Shown here piece by piece: positions 1 to 23,412 of a DNA stretch of 64,000 nucleotides (its first letter is position 1; the number at the start of each line of letters is the position of its first letter). The notes under the pieces were generated by a model, which saw only the letters and a list, made by a program, of their open reading frames with translations, did no database searches and was not told the DNA's origin. Source of the stretch: Eubacteriaceae bacterium (GTDB lineage Bacteria > Bacillota > Clostridia > Eubacteriales > Anaerofustaceae); contig JAFXKY010000046.1 in assembly GCA_017531485.1 (NCBI GenBank), positions 124,001 to 188,000 on the forward strand, written 5' to 3'. Made by a program: the position numbers and the translations under genes.

Positions 1-964
1 TCACATATCCCCCGATAAGAGAAAACGCAAGAACAAACACGATACATACTGACACCACGGCCATACCTTTCGGGTATTTCTTGAATCGTACGATAGATTC
101 GATGCGGGACTTTATATTCTTTCCGCCGTTTGAGATGCTGCTTGTAACAGAGCTTCTCGCATACTTTTCGTTTGCCATTTCAAGCAGGATCCCGCCATAC
201 ATTCTCCTCTCTTCACCTTCAAGCCTTTCGAGCACCCTCTGATCACATAAAGATTCCATATCATTTCCGACGATGTTAAAAACGTACCACATAAACGGAT
301 TGTACCAGTTCAGGGATTTCATAACCCCCCAGAACATATTATGCAATACATCATGATATTTCAGATGGAGCAGTTCATGCAGAATGATCTTTTCATCTGT
401 ATCCTTTCCTTTCGGCAAAACCAGCACGGGAGAGAAAATTCCCGTAACAAACGCAGTGTCGATTCCAGTCACTTCGAGCAGATTGCAGGAAGTGAGTGAA
501 TATTTTTCACAGACATTTTTCGTTCGCTCTTTCATAATACTTCCAGCTTCTTCCGCATTTTTCAATATCATCCTGATGCGGATATAGTTTATGATATATG
601 AAATGAGCATTATGACTACGCCTGCAAAATATACAACGAAAATGATGTCAGTTATGCTTTTCGGAATACCCGTAACACAGGGAAACGGGATTCGGGGGCT
701 TATGGTTTTATAAATCTCTGTATATGCCGACGAGAGATTTTTTTCAACATACGATTTTAATGTTTCAAGCCAAAGCGGTACGGGCTGAAGGATATACGAT
801 ATGGTATTCACGGGAATGAGAATCCTCAAAATGAGAACGCACCACACTCCGTATTGCCAGCGCGGAGAGAGCTTGTCCATAAGTATTTTCTTGATGATAA
901 GGATAATACCTGCCGTAATGCTTACGGAAATACCCTGCAACAGAACTTCCCAGATGTTGTTCAT
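1..964 (-). CDS. BlaR1/MecR1-like M56 membrane metallopeptidase (partial, C-terminus beyond left edge)
   Basis: This gene reads leftward off the window, so only about 321 N-terminal residues are visible. It begins MNNIWEVLLQG with a hydrophobic helix at about residues 8-28. It carries a zinc-protease HELLH motif at about residues 196-200 (bases 365-379) and the LCDQRV stretch typical of the third zinc-ligand region. M56 proteins of this type sense an outside signal through membrane helices and inactivate a cognate BlaI repressor by proteolysis. The start codon lies one base after the stop of the upstream BlaI gene, so the two are one translational unit. Whether a penicillin-binding sensor domain follows cannot be seen, so a beta-lactam role is not established. 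Family call is firm; ligand unknown. Confidence 0.9.
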   Translation of the reverse strand, partial: MNNIWEVLLQGISVSITAGIILIIKKILMDKLSPRWQYGVWCVLILRILIPVNTISYILQPVPLWLETLKSYVEKNLSSAYTEIYKTISPRIPFPCVTGIPKSITDIIFVVYFAGVVIMLISYIINYIRIRMILKNAEEAGSIMKERTKNVCEKYSLTSCNLLEVTGIDTAFVTGIFSPVLVLPKGKDTDEKIILHELLHLKYHDVLHNMFWGVMKSLNWYNPFMWYVFNIVGNDMESLCDQRVLERLEGEERRMYGGILLEMANEKYARSSVTSSISNGGKNIKSRIESIVRFKKYPKGMAVVSVCIVFVLAFSLIGGYV

Positions 965-1324
965 TTATACCTCCATGTCATCGAGCATTTTTCTGAGATT
1001 GTCAACTTCGTCCTTTGATATCTTGCTTTCTTTCAGAAATGCTGCGATGAGGTCCCCTGCGGAACCCTTATACACCCTGCTTAACAGATCGTTTCTCTCT
1101 TCCTTTGCACAGTCATCCCTGATTATATTTGCGGAATATGGCTTTTGCGCATGCTTTTCAATGGATACATATCCTTTCTTTTCCATTCTCGTGAGGTATG
1201 TATGGACAGTATTTTTGTTCCATCCCTTTATTGAGAAAAGTTTATCCGTAACTTCTTTTAGAGAAAATTTTTCGCCTTCCCACAATACTTCCATTACTGC
1301 CCACTCGGCGTCTGTCAATTTCAT
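965..1324 (-). CDS. BlaI/MecI/CopY-family transcriptional repressor
   Basis: A 119-aa winged-helix repressor beginning MKLTDAEWAVMEVLW, the usual N-terminus of BlaI proteins. The recognition-helix region contains WNKNTVHTYLTRMEKKGY, and a C-terminal dimerisation/cleavage segment follows. I chose the ATG at 1324 because an AGGAGG site lies 6-7 bases upstream. A longer in-frame start at 1375 would put the operators inside the coding region. BlaI represses its own operon until the partner M56 protease, encoded directly downstream, cleaves it. Two dyads that fit the BlaI operator consensus TACANNTGTA sit over its promoter, so autoregulation is likely. Confidence 0.93.
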   Translation of the reverse strand: MKLTDAEWAVMEVLWEGEKFSLKEVTDKLFSIKGWNKNTVHTYLTRMEKKGYVSIEKHAQKPYSANIIRDDCAKEERNDLLSRVYKGSAGDLIAAFLKESKISKDEVDNLRKMLDDMEV

Positions 1325-1336
1325 CCCAAAACCTCC

Positions 1337-1385
1337 TACACTTGTCGTATACATATATACTACACTTGTAGTCATTATTTGTCAA
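1337..1385 (-). promoter_or_regulatory. Sigma-A promoter with paired BlaI-type operators
   Basis: On the minus strand, -35 TTGACA (1380-1385) and -10 TAGTAT (1357-1362) are 17 bases apart. A perfect 14-base dyad, ACTACACTTGTAGT (1359-1372), sits in the spacer and touches the -10. A second copy with one changed base, TACACTTGTC by the + strand (1337-1346), lies 24 bases downstream centre to centre. Both match the known BlaI/CopY core TACANNTGTA. Repression by blocking RNA polymerase is the expected mode. Confidence 0.85.
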
Positions 1386-18728: not shown

Positions 18729-18730
18729 CA

Positions 18731-18755
18731 AAACAGGATGCAGCGCATCCTGTTT
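18731..18755 (+). terminator. Terminator of the ABC importer operon
   Basis: Stem AAACAGGATGC/GCATCCTGTTT with a 3-base loop, followed by a T-run. It also lies at the 3' end of the convergent BlaR1-like gene. Confidence 0.9.
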
Positions 18756-18756
18756 T

Positions 18757-20421
18757 TTAATTTCCGTCAGCCATAAAATAATTTTCATCAATTCCGCCGA
18801 CAATTATTTTTTCTGCGAAGTATATTTCCGTGGCATCAAACCATTCGTATCCGGAACCGATTTCTTTGCCCGGTTCTGTATGAGGAACGAGGGTTATATA
18901 TACCCCTCCCGGGCAGACTCCGTCCCACAGATCCTCTCCTGCGCGTGCAAATACTGCATTATAGATCTCGTCGTCCGAGAATTCGAGAACCGTTTTATCC
19001 GTATCGGCAATAATCCCTATATATTCATCAAGGCTGTTTCTGATTTCAAAGCGCCTGATGTTGCTTTCGGCCGGATCGCTGAATTCCGTAATGATCTCTC
19101 CGTTGAATTTCTCTGCAAACGTTATATCTGAGAAATATCCGATGAAGAACGTCTGGAGGACATATTCAGGATTTTTCACACGGTAAGTATATGATGGTTT
19201 GACCGTATCATCGATCCAGACTTCTGTACACTTGTTGTTAAAATACATCCATGAATCCCCAAGATCGATAACCCTGTCTTTGGGGCGGTCTTCATCAAGG
19301 CTTTTGGAAAGTTCGTGTTTATTGATCTCTATCTTTCTGAGAGCATCAGTTGCAATCTTTATGCTCTCCTTTTCAGTCAGAAGATATTCCTTTCCGAAGA
19401 CACCATTCATCACGTACACATATTCCGGATCGTCAAATAAGTTCTCCCAACAAGGGGATATATCATCGATGCCTGCGGAGGGAGGATTTGTCATGAAAAA
19501 TACCGCGAAAGATACGATCATGACCGTACAAAGAAAGAAAATGATCCCTGTAGGTCTTTTATACTGCATTATTCCTTTGATCCTGTCTTTTATCCCCACT
19601 TCTCCGAACGCAAGCGGTGAGATCGCAAAGGAATTCTTTTCTACTGAAAAAGAAAGCAGGCTGAGTGAATAACTTTTTTTCTCATCATCACCGAGATTCT
19701 TTATCACAGCCTCATCACATGCAAGCTCAAGGTCTTTGCAGAATGTGCTGAATGCGAGCCACATTAAAGGATTGAACCAGTATATACAAAGGAGAACGTA
19801 AGCTAATATCTTGCTGATATGATCGAGACGTTTTATGTGCATCTTTTCGTGCGAAATGACATTTACCGCGTCATTTTCCGAAATTCCGTACGGGATATAT
19901 ATCTTCGGGGAAAATATACCCATCACAAACGGTCCTTTGATAAATTCGCTCTGCCGGATATTTTCATTATATTTTGTGGCAGTCGCAAGCATTCTTTTCA
20001 GCCTGATATAGCTGTATGCCGCATAAGAAAGCATTACGGTAATACCCGCGATCCATATTTTTGCAAGGAAATCTGTAAGGTCGTTTTTGAAATTGTAACG
20101 CACAGTAACGCCTTCGTAATACTTATCTCCCATATATTCATTTACGGGATCGTCAATGATGTCAAAGCCCGTATTGATATAAAAATCACCATTACCATTA
20201 TCAAGAAGATTCATCTCAAAAGTATCTCCGCTTGGAATGAGGCTTATCTCACTTTCGGGGATAACGGGAATAATGAGCCTTAATGCAACAAAACTCCACA
20301 AGAACACTATAAACCACTTCGGGCAATTTTTGAAGAATTTTCTTATGAGAAGGATCGCAAGGGTTATGTATCCCGCTGTAATCGACAAATTAACGGCATT
20401 TAAAAATAATCTGTTCATCAC
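18757..20421 (-). CDS. BlaR1/MecR1-like M56 membrane metallopeptidase
   Basis: 554 aa. The N-terminal half has membrane helices (about 8-28, 36-54, 120-138, 203-220) and the M56 zinc site HEKMH (191-195) with the third-ligand region DLELACDEAV (230-239). A helix at about 290-310 is followed by a roughly 240-residue extracytoplasmic domain that lacks the SxxK/KTG motifs of a penicillin-binding sensor. It therefore probably senses something other than beta-lactams. It overlaps the BlaI gene by four bases. Confidence 0.9.
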   Translation of the reverse strand: MMNRLFLNAVNLSITAGYITLAILLIRKFFKNCPKWFIVFLWSFVALRLIIPVIPESEISLIPSGDTFEMNLLDNGNGDFYINTGFDIIDDPVNEYMGDKYYEGVTVRYNFKNDLTDFLAKIWIAGITVMLSYAAYSYIRLKRMLATATKYNENIRQSEFIKGPFVMGIFSPKIYIPYGISENDAVNVISHEKMHIKRLDHISKILAYVLLCIYWFNPLMWLAFSTFCKDLELACDEAVIKNLGDDEKKSYSLSLLSFSVEKNSFAISPLAFGEVGIKDRIKGIMQYKRPTGIIFFLCTVMIVSFAVFFMTNPPSAGIDDISPCWENLFDDPEYVYVMNGVFGKEYLLTEKESIKIATDALRKIEINKHELSKSLDEDRPKDRVIDLGDSWMYFNNKCTEVWIDDTVKPSYTYRVKNPEYVLQTFFIGYFSDITFAEKFNGEIITEFSDPAESNIRRFEIRNSLDEYIGIIADTDKTVLEFSDDEIYNAVFARAGEDLWDGVCPGGVYITLVPHTEPGKEIGSGYEWFDATEIYFAEKIIVGGIDENYFMADGN

Positions 20422-20768
20422 TCTTCCCCCATGATCTTCATTATTTCACTTATCTCTTCTTCGGAAAGCCTCTTGCTTTTTGCAAATGCGGCGATGAATG
20501 CCGGGATATTCCCTTCGAATTTCTTTTCGAGAAGTTCATCGATCTCCGAAATCTGAGCTTCCTGCTTGGAGATGAGCGAAGTTACAACGGCGTTCTCGTT
20601 TCTGACAACTCCTCGGTCGGAAAGGCGCTTGATGACCGTATAAGTCGTTGTCTTTGACCAGCCGAGTTTTTCATGGCAGATCTCTGACAGCTCTCTTGAG
20701 GATATGGGTTCGACTTCCCATAAGATAAGACAGAAACGGTATTCGCTTTCGTGTATTTTCGGTGCCAT
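20418..20768 (-). CDS. BlaI/MecI-family transcriptional repressor (second copy)
   Basis: 116 aa. MAPKIHESEYRFCLILWEVE then ISSRELSEICHEKLGWSKTT form the winged helix, with TTYTVIKRLSDRGVV as the recognition region. It differs strongly from the BlaI protein at 965. GGAGG lies upstream of the ATG. Its promoter carries two dyads of a different sequence class. The partner protease gene is directly downstream. Confidence 0.93.
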   Translation of the reverse strand: MAPKIHESEYRFCLILWEVEPISSRELSEICHEKLGWSKTTTYTVIKRLSDRGVVRNENAVVTSLISKQEAQISEIDELLEKKFEGNIPAFIAAFAKSKRLSEEEISEIMKIMGEE

Positions 20769-20784
20769 ATATTACCTCCTTCAT

Positions 20785-20835
20785 TCTAATGCGTTAGAGC
20801 AGTTATATTCTAACGCATTAGAACAGCTTTGTCAA
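20785..20835 (-). promoter_or_regulatory. Sigma-A promoter with paired TCTAA-N4-TTAGA operators
   Basis: On the minus strand, TTGACA (20830-20835) and TAGAAT (20807-20812) are 17 bases apart. TCTAACGCATTAGA (20809-20822) overlaps the -10 and spacer. TCTAATGCGTTAGA (20785-20798) lies 24 bases downstream centre to centre and is the exact reverse complement of the first. This is the likely binding site of the adjacent BlaI. Confidence 0.85.
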
Positions 20836-20851
20836 GAGCACAAATAAAAAA

Positions 20852-20869
20852 CGACAATATAAATTGTCG
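20852..20869 (-). terminator. Rho-independent terminator
   Basis: Stem CGACAAT/ATTGTCG with loop ATAA. On the minus strand it is followed by six T, ending the 387-aa gene at 20900. Confidence 0.85.
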
Positions 20870-20899
20870 CTTTTACTCTTGGAATTACAACAAAACATC

Positions 20900-22063
20900 T
20901 CATATATTGTTTCTGTGTCTGAATATTACCCTGTCATCCAGAACTTCTATTTCATCTTCGAACATCGGAACATATTCCCAATAGAACCGCGGTTTAGTAC
21001 CCCAGCCCCACGCATCGAAATTCAGAAGATCTTTCATTTTGATCTCGCTCTTTCCGGGATACAGCGCATTATACAGTAAACTTTTTATTGCTTTATACTC
21101 ATCAATATCCGTACTGATAATATCTTTGGAAGATCTGACAATCATATTTCCTCCGGGCAATACCTCAGTAGTCACCTCCGGATATTTCTGCGATTCTGAC
21201 AAAAGATTTGGCAAGAGCTGTTGCTGTAACGGAGATATGATATTAAACCACTCAGCTCCAGGTACATACGCATATTTGTTCATATCACTGTCGCCATAAT
21301 CAAACTCCGGATGCTCAGGATTTTTGTTCAATCTTCCGCCAAAATACACCATATGCGGGCTGATGTGTTGAAGAATACTAAAATATGACAGGTTTACTCT
21401 GCTACTCGTATTCTTAAACTCAATCGCAAAATCTTTCAAAAATCTGATGATCTCATTTGAAAAATGAATAACATTTTCGCCGAGGGATTTTAATGCAATT
21501 GCAAAGTCAAATTTACCACAGTATTTAATCGCACCTTCTATATAATGGTTCGAGTGAAAAAAAGCTGATACGTCACTGCCCGCCCACATTGACACAGGAT
21601 ACATCCCAGACATATCAAAAATCTCAAGCAAAGATTTTTTTATTTCATCATTTCTCTCAATGTCCTGAAAATAAGACATGAATACATCTTTATAATTCAT
21701 GGTCTTATCAGCATCAGGCGGCAGTTTATACGTAGAGCCATACATAGCTTCTTTCAGGAATGCTTTGTACGATTTTTGATTATAGATTTCTTTACTCACA
21801 ATCATACCGTCAAATCCGAACGAGATACCACTGTCCGGATTATCTATTTTTGTCTGTATATTTTCAGACCGGATTTCACGATCCCCATAGAACCATCTTA
21901 ATACAGCTCTATGTTCAATCACTTCACTCAGCCAATGACGTATACGTGTAGCTATTGCGTTAAGTTCAGGCCACGAACATTGATAAAAATCTATTTCAAA
22001 CTTCAACATTCTGCAATCGATATATTGCCCACGAAATGATAGCATTGATGTAAAATAGTCCAT
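20900..22063 (-). CDS. Orphan hypothetical protein
   Basis: 387 aa, no signal or membrane segment, starting MDYFTSMLSFRGQYIDCRML. It is rich in aromatic residues, with WAGSDVSAFFHSN, FGGRLNKNPEHPEFDYG and FDAWGWGTKPRFYWEYVP as the most distinctive stretches. GAGGAG precedes the ATG. It stands alone with its own terminator, between a regulatory pair and the rpe region. Such large single-domain orphans are often accessory, sometimes immunity-type proteins, but nothing here proves this. Confidence 0.65.
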   Translation of the reverse strand: MDYFTSMLSFRGQYIDCRMLKFEIDFYQCSWPELNAIATRIRHWLSEVIEHRAVLRWFYGDREIRSENIQTKIDNPDSGISFGFDGMIVSKEIYNQKSYKAFLKEAMYGSTYKLPPDADKTMNYKDVFMSYFQDIERNDEIKKSLLEIFDMSGMYPVSMWAGSDVSAFFHSNHYIEGAIKYCGKFDFAIALKSLGENVIHFSNEIIRFLKDFAIEFKNTSSRVNLSYFSILQHISPHMVYFGGRLNKNPEHPEFDYGDSDMNKYAYVPGAEWFNIISPLQQQLLPNLLSESQKYPEVTTEVLPGGNMIVRSSKDIISTDIDEYKAIKSLLYNALYPGKSEIKMKDLLNFDAWGWGTKPRFYWEYVPMFEDEIEVLDDRVIFRHRNNI

Positions 22064-22140
22064 GTCGAATTCTCCTCTGTTAACATGAGCATGCGTTTTA
22101 TCTATGCTTCAATCTAATGTTCTGCCTTATATTCATGCAT

Positions 22141-23412
22141 TTACTGCAAATCATAGATATCGACGCTTCCCCAATCGAAATCAACAACGATATCTGAAAG
22201 GCTGCCGTCATACATTCCCATAAAGACCGTATAATTAAACATGTCTTTTCCGCTGAACGGCGGAAGATTCATGCAGAACGCACGGTTGCCGAGATATTCT
22301 GCGGACTGAGAAGGAGGAAGGTCAGTGATCTCTTCAATGACAAGTACGTTGGAATCCTTATTTACCGAACCGAAAAGGCTGATCTTTATATCCCTTTCGT
22401 CAACGCGTCCTTTCATGAACTGTTCGAAACGGTCTTCTCCCGTAAGGACGGTATATATTCCGTCATTCACCTCGAAGACAAGATCGTTATAGTTTCCTTC
22501 GAAGTCGTAATATTTAAGGTAATATACTTCGTCGTTTCCATACGCACAGACGACCTCATTCAGGAAGTTGATCCTGTCGTTAAGCTGAGAAAGAGAAGTA
22601 TATTCATCTTTAAAATTAAAGTCCGACGGAACGAGCAGGACGAGGGCAGCGAGAATATAAAACGCTATATATCTCACACCGAGTCCGATACCGCTTTTTT
22701 TCTCATTATTGTTTTCCGCTTTCGGAAGAACATAAATTATTCCGTCTGAGATATTTTCCCAGAGAATGTTCATTATGCTCTCATACGCGCCGGCAAGGGT
22801 GTGCTTCTCTCTTTTTTTGACGATCTTTTCCGCTTCTTTTCTGTTTTGCTGGGATAAGAGAGTGATCGTATGTATATAATCCCTGATATCGTCGACAAGC
22901 GGAAGATAAAAATCTTTATTCAGCATGGATGAAAAATCAAAGCCCTTTTCTTCGAGCATCTGATTTGCTGTCACCGTATCGCCTTTTTTCGCCCTGATCG
23001 CAGCGAGAATGAGGTGCATGACGTATTTATCTGCATCCTGAATATCTTTGGCGTATTCATCAAGAAAACTTTCTACAGTTTCCGCATCGCTCTGCAAAAG
23101 GGCGATGAACGATCTGCCGAGATACGTCTGCTCGGGAACTTTTTCTTCGGAGATATATTCATCCATCAATACTGCCGCACGGGCGTAATCATTTTCCTCA
23201 AGAGCAATATCGATCTTTTCCGCGAGGAGCCTTCTGTTCATCTTTGTGAAAATAGAGAAAAACAGAAGAATGATCCCGATTACGGCGAGCTGACCGAAGA
23301 AGAAGTTTTTGTTGACTCCGAGATTATATTTCCACAAACTCCAGAAGAATATAAACACAGCAGTGAAAAGATACACAACTTTCACAGCTGCTCTTTTCTT
23401 TGCCTTATTCAT
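22141..23412 (-). CDS. Membrane protein with helical-repeat domain, coupled to rpe
   Basis: 423 aa. Two helices at about 12-28 and 37-54 are followed by a cytoplasmic helical stretch (60-235) that reads like degenerate TPR repeats (EENDYARAAVLMDEYISEEK, AAIRAKKGDTVTANQMLEEK). A third helix lies near 246-263, and an extracytoplasmic C-terminal domain follows. The start shares one base with the rpe stop codon. Function unknown. Confidence 0.7.
   Translation of the reverse strand: MNKAKKRAAVKVVYLFTAVFIFFWSLWKYNLGVNKNFFFGQLAVIGIILLFFSIFTKMNRRLLAEKIDIALEENDYARAAVLMDEYISEEKVPEQTYLGRSFIALLQSDAETVESFLDEYAKDIQDADKYVMHLILAAIRAKKGDTVTANQMLEEKGFDFSSMLNKDFYLPLVDDIRDYIHTITLLSQQNRKEAEKIVKKREKHTLAGAYESIMNILWENISDGIIYVLPKAENNNEKKSGIGLGVRYIAFYILAALVLLVPSDFNFKDEYTSLSQLNDRINFLNEVVCAYGNDEVYYLKYYDFEGNYNDLVFEVNDGIYTVLTGEDRFEQFMKGRVDERDIKISLFGSVNKDSNVLVIEEITDLPPSQSAEYLGNRAFCMNLPPFSGKDMFNYTVFMGMYDGSLSDIVVDFDWGSVDIYDLQ

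Follow-up and report, generated by a model that had tools for sequence, protein, structure and literature searches.

Two BlaI/BlaR1-type modules with a common promoter-operator layout in one genome, and a clade of modules that appear to target themselves

The BlaI/BlaR1 family controls penicillin resistance in staphylococci, and the design of such a module is already known. The presence of two such pairs within one stretch of DNA raises the question of whether they are insulated copies of one regulatory design, as a sequence-only reading of this locus had proposed, and of what each of them senses and switches. The window (the whole stretch analyzed, 64,000 nucleotides) belongs to a gut-type clostridial genome of 2.17 Mb in 81 contigs with 95% completeness, and the nearest named relative was a MAG labeled Anaerofustis stercorihominis (SIG257; BlaI2 identity, 81%). 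Genome-wide, exactly two BlaI-type repressors and exactly two M56 (BlaR1-type) proteases were found, and both blaI-blaR1 pairs fell within the window, with PF03965 and PF05569 in each pair confirming the proposed identity of the two modules. A third PF03965 match in the genome was rejected as a BlaI because it is an OhrR/MarR-type regulator.

In module 1, blaI1 (965–1324, minus strand) encodes a BlaI/MecI-family repressor of 119 aa (PF03965, E 1.3e-28; match to MecI 1sd6, E 3e-15), and blaR1-1 (1–964, minus strand) encodes an M56 sensor protease with an HELLH motif (PF05569), of which aa 1–321 of 674 lie inside the window; the full gene was read at L007:3941-5965. In module 2, blaI2 (20418–20768, minus strand) encodes a BlaI/MecI-family repressor of 116 aa (PF03965, E 1.1e-18; 1sd6, E 5e-6), and its stop is overlapped by the start of blaR1-2 (18757–20421, minus strand), which encodes an M56 sensor protease of 554 aa with an HEKMH motif (PF05569, E 6e-50). 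Both BlaI proteins scored well above the curated PF03965 cut-off (100.1 and 68.1 bits vs 22.6), matched MecI/BlaI structures, and carried the Phe that aligns with MecI F102 (AAF), the cleavage-site Phe at P1′. The PF05569 domain with HExxH was present in both BlaR1 proteins, and the match of BlaR1-2 to S. aureus BlaR1 (8exs) was confined to the protease part. As a separate observation, BlaR1-2 (18757–20421) has an Ala-Phe aligned near the autocleavage site of S. aureus BlaR1 (Ser283-Phe284), like the Ala-Phe of BlaI2, and BlaR1-1 appears to have no autocleavage-site Phe (SISNGGKNIKSR). A terminator-like hairpin separates the upstream gene from the blaI2 promoter (20847–20874, minus strand), and a second one, lying directly after blaR1-2 (18730–18756, plus strand; T/A runs on both sides), ends the operon; module 2 is therefore a two-gene unit. 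The two genes upstream of blaI2 (20900–23412; 387 and 423 aa) had no Pfam family match.

Read directly, the two blaI promoters shared the layout that had been described for them: TTGACA-N17-TAGNAT, with the center of operator O1 3 bases 5′ of the -10 box and operator O2 24 bp downstream. The blaI1 promoter (1357–1385, minus strand) consists of a -35 box TTGACA (1380–1385) and a -10 box TAGTAT (1357–1362) with a 17-bp spacer, and its predicted operators are O1 (CTACAAGTGTAG; 1360–1371, minus strand), which overlaps the spacer and -10 box, and O2 (CGACAAGTGTAG; 1336–1347, minus strand), 24 bp downstream of O1. The blaI2 promoter (20807–20835, minus strand; promoter scan, 11 of 12) has a -35 box TTGACA (20830–20835) and a -10 box TAGAAT (20807–20812), again with a 17-bp spacer; here the predicted O1 (TTCTAATGCGTTAGAA; 20808–20823, minus strand), conserved in orthologues, overlaps the spacer and -10 box, and the predicted O2 (CTCTAACGCATTAGAA; 20784–20799, minus strand) lies at about the transcription start. 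The operator sequence given earlier for site 1, TACANNTGTA, held at one dyad only, since the second dyad reads GACANNTGTA.

These inverted repeats, present at the own promoter of both blaI genes, were backed by a phylogenetic footprint. Among 89 promoters read from 80 BlaI2 relatives plus the family genomes, 80 had the O1 dyad at an identical register; the half-site of BlaI2 orthologues was CTAA, and the dyad-to-dyad spacing ranged from about 22 to 32 bp, 24 bp being the commonest. For module 1, the O1 dyad was kept in the blaI1 promoter of the sister species (L040). The paired pattern CTAAN4TTAG-N9-16-CTAAN4TTAG was found in 35 of 40 relatives' genomes, compared with 1 of 40 for a reversed control pattern. 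To judge from this footprint, in which the module 2 dyads recur in the same register in Clostridia orthologues, the dyads are real operators. Scanning the 2.17-Mb genome for TCTAAN4TTAGA returned three matches, two at the blaI2 promoter and one inside a gene, and the scan for each operator placed every operator pair only at its own promoter in this 95%-complete genome; sites with 2 mismatches exist elsewhere. Another paired TACANNTGT-type match (on C4) was rejected as an operator, as it falls within a long open reading frame.

The two operator sequences had been considered unrelated, a view that did not survive alignment on their centers: both read CTA-N6-TAG in the same register. The half-sites are C T A C A N / N T G T A G at site 1 and C T A A N N / N N T T A G at site 2, which agree at positions 6-5-4 and differ mainly at ±3 and ±2, plus the flanks. 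The right-hand TAG common to both supplies the first three bases of the -10 box TAGNAT, so the geometry common to the modules largely follows from an operator that contains the -10 box, rather than from a special shared design. Such embedding was widespread, with a half-site pair built into the -10 box in 172 of the 187 class-wide BlaI promoters (those with a recognizable promoter), where the half-sites were CTAA, CTAT, CTAC, TTAC, TTAT, and TTAA. The exact 24-bp agreement between modules 1 and 2 is partly a coincidence, because the spacing in the sister species is 22 bp in module 1 and 24 bp in module 2.

The proposed separation of the two modules is plausible: operator pairs were confined to their own promoters, the BlaI proteins share only ~25% identity, and their recognition helices, when compared, proved different (NTVHTYLTR in BlaI1, TTTYTVIKR in BlaI2). 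Nevertheless, selection for insulation was rejected. In 24 genomes with several BlaIs, 41 of 43 same-genome blaI pairs differed in half-site, which is no more than chance (a shared 6-base half-site in 2 of 43 pairs vs 3.0 expected by shuffling), and the 4-base core was common to within-genome pairs oftener than expected (16 vs 9.8), giving no sign of avoidance. Genomes with two modules that differ in half-site are common in this bacterial class, and the two switches studied here are likely to be separate without this amounting to special design. A residue-to-base specificity code was likewise considered and rejected. Among 172 class-wide BlaIs, Y46 helices went with A/T at ±3 in 108 of 123 cases and other helices with C in 47 of 49; however, when the helix was left out of tree building, the Y46 class came out as one deep split and provided no independent pairs. 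The ±3 base changed about 15 times on the BlaI tree, and a relation of R51/K51 to A/T (2.4 same-way and 0.1 opposite of 5 pairs) was suggestive and underpowered.

Cross-regulation, in which each BlaI would bind both promoters through the common CTA-N6-TAG, has to be weighed against this separation. Staphylococcal BlaI and MecI bind each other's sites, and here the outer triplets are common to both operators in the same register. Some BlaIs with TTYT-class helices use a TAC half-site, and cross-binding therefore remains conceivable. The second blaI-blaR1 pair of one relative's genome (G177; L291:3585-5746) has the same CTAA half-site as the first pair; cross-talk between the two G177 modules is thus likely, and they offer a natural counter-example to insulation. 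Against these points, the dyads of each module differ from those of the other at ±3 in both arms, identity between BlaI1 and BlaI2 is only ~25%, and the C. thermocellum BlaIs, with half-sites one base apart (GTCTAT and GACTAT), have separate regulons (PMC8457756), so that we regard cross-regulation of the two modules as improbable. The sister species additionally carries a third blaI-type gene (G010:C76:6754-7080, L037) with half-site GTCTAT and odd spacing, like C. thermocellum BlaI_0696.

With regard to the signal, the second sensor had been singled out as lacking penicillin-binding motifs, and this was borne out, with neither a PF00905 (transpeptidase) match nor the SxxK / SxN / KTG set. 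The implied contrast with the first sensor was not, because BlaR1-1 likewise has no PF00905 match and no such motif set. Pfam detected no penicillin-binding domain in 50 clade BlaR1 members, the motif set was absent from 73 clade sensors, and the two window proteins reached only 129 and 110 bits in the NCBIfam model blaR1_generic (cut-off, 400). Neither sensor therefore looks like a penicillin receptor at the sequence level. The sensors could still detect beta-lactams or cell-wall fragments with no recognizable transpeptidase domain. The family offers precedent for such ligands, and one report on B. licheniformis BlaI/BlaR describes the involvement of a peptidoglycan fragment (PMC3305447); given the consistent absence of PF00905 and of the motif set from both sensors and across the clade, we consider this reading very unlikely here.

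The ectodomain of BlaR1-2 spans approximately aa 309–554. In a search of 391 genomes of the class, sequence relatives of the ectodomains were restricted to the sister species, plus one marginal match to sensor 2 (E 8e-4), and the first part of sensor 2 had partial matches in a few clade receptors. The structure model of sensor 2 (mean pLDDT, 62.5; good only for approximately ectodomain residues 20–120) was compared with known structures. Its best PDB matches, 4r7r (a lipoprotein of C. perfringens; Z, 7.4; rmsd, 3.9) and 2mct (from R. gnavus; Z, 6.5), both fell in the non-diagnostic range of the tool; no penicillin-binding fold was listed among the matches. The model of sensor 1 was unusable (pLDDT, 35), and solved structures searched with a profile of all 50 clade BlaR1s returned nothing, the signal probably having been diluted by the ectodomains. 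The window BlaR1-2 also ends earlier than the copy in the sister species (554 vs 721 aa). The latter (L293:1082-3247) has an extra C-terminal segment of ~170 aa, beginning KPVIYLYP, that is missing from the window copy and covered by no Pfam family.

Variation of the outer domain was a general feature of the module 2 clade. The median pairwise identity fell from ~72% in BlaI to 44% in the protease part and 22% in the ectodomain, the last compared with 21% in reversed controls. The clade receptors (loci L051-L121) spanned lengths of 431–1163 aa, and 21 clusters were distinguished among the ectodomains, with BlaI and the operator being nearly constant; Pfam matches outside the protease were mostly Ig-like domains, DUF6034, and leucine-rich repeats. 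The only detectable target of module 2 is the module itself. Most clade operons end right after blaR1, often at a hairpin (judged by eye from the listed clade members), and the paired CTAA operator occurred once per genome in the 35 of 40 clade genomes that have it, with the exception of one genome with two (G177), where the second operator pair lies upstream of another blaI-blaR1 pair. The clade members resemble closed-loop modules for surface sensing in which the outer domain is exchangeable. The window and sister BlaI2 were placed inside a clade otherwise composed of MAGs labeled Clostridia or Oscillospiraceae, and a related BlaI of any kind was present in just 5 of 13 family genomes; these data are consistent with horizontal spread of module 2.

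Module 2 could instead act on a distant gene whose operator is weaker, single, or divergent, or on one that the assembly lacks. At 95% completeness, an assembly of 81 contigs may well be short of a target; 2-mismatch sites occur elsewhere in the genome, and one C. thermocellum BlaI has two extra targets (PMC8457756). Set against this is the single occurrence of the paired operator per genome among the 40 relatives, the one genome with two having the second at another blaI-blaR1, and a distant target appears rather unlikely to us. For module 1, the third gene of the blaI1 operon (L007:3390-3944), which has an overlap with the blaR1-1 end and is also conserved in the sister species, encodes a 184-aa membrane-type protein with no Pfam family above the cut-off, a candidate output of this module. 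No beta-lactamase or PBP2a target, and no further operator pair, was found in the 95%-complete genome.

Taken together, the locus most probably comprises two independent BlaI/BlaR1-type regulated-proteolysis switches, each acting on its own operon. This model starts from genes, operators, register, conservation, and genome-wide uniqueness, all read from the DNA; for both switches we infer repression, cleavage, ligand, and specificity. A BlaI dimer on O1 would cover the spacer and -10 box, and a second dimer on O2 would sit at the transcription start, together blocking transcription of the own blaI-blaR1 operon. A ligand at the outer domain of BlaR1 would cause the membrane M56 zinc protease to act on BlaI. 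S. aureus BlaR1 directly cuts BlaI (PMC9834060), and the predicted cut next to the conserved Phe (Asn101-Phe102 in S. aureus, Ala-Phe here) would turn the operon on. The CTA-N6-TAG frame common to both switches would be fixed by the embedded -10 box, and the half-site bases at ±3 and ±2 plus different recognition helices would keep them apart. Since the only detectable target of module 2 is itself, its induced product would be BlaR1-2 with its outer domain, whereas module 1 would also drive the small membrane protein.

A similar arrangement is known from C. thermocellum, where BlaI_0696 and BlaI_1845 bind half-sites GTCTAT and GACTAT, as determined by DAP-seq and gel shift (PMC8457756): two BlaI paralogues have differing half-sites, two inverted-repeat pairs at each own promoter, and very small regulons. 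That system differs in its in vitro binding data, in its CTAT-type half-sites, and in two further operons within one regulon. S. aureus BlaI-BlaR1 / MecI-MecR1 likewise combine a BlaI-type repressor and an M56 sensor protease in an autoregulated operon with the cleavage Phe, and their operator is of the TACANNTGTA type, as in module 1; by contrast, the present modules have no PBP-like sensor domain and no beta-lactamase/PBP2a target was found, and module 2 has CTAA half-sites. The CopY/CopR copper repressors (operator, RNYKACANNYGTMRNY; PMC7253601) share the protein superfamily, the TACANNTGTA core, and paired operators. However, no copper operon is present here, each BlaI adjoins a BlaR1-type protease, the C-terminal Cys-X-Cys metal motif is absent from BlaI1 and BlaI2, and the CopY_TcrY model scored below its cut-off.

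The embedded -10 box suggests a testable rule: where it is built into the operator, the outer CTA/TAG would be held, and specificity would be left mostly to the flanks and to inner positions ±3 and ±2. Worth following up is the clade in which self-targeting modules carry outer domains that look interchangeable. Our survey of its receptors indicates a large pool of surface sensors, and most of the clade's M56 "BlaR1" annotations are not to be taken as a sign of beta-lactam resistance. Tentatively, the module 2 clade may constitute a widespread, partly horizontally spread closed-loop receptor family of gut Clostridia in which rapidly replaced extracellular domains are attached to an almost invariant BlaI, operator pair, and protease core, and in which the displayed outer domain is the output. 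If this is true, the sole gene switched would be that of the receptor itself, and the outer domain, rather than a separate resistance gene, would be what the module delivers.
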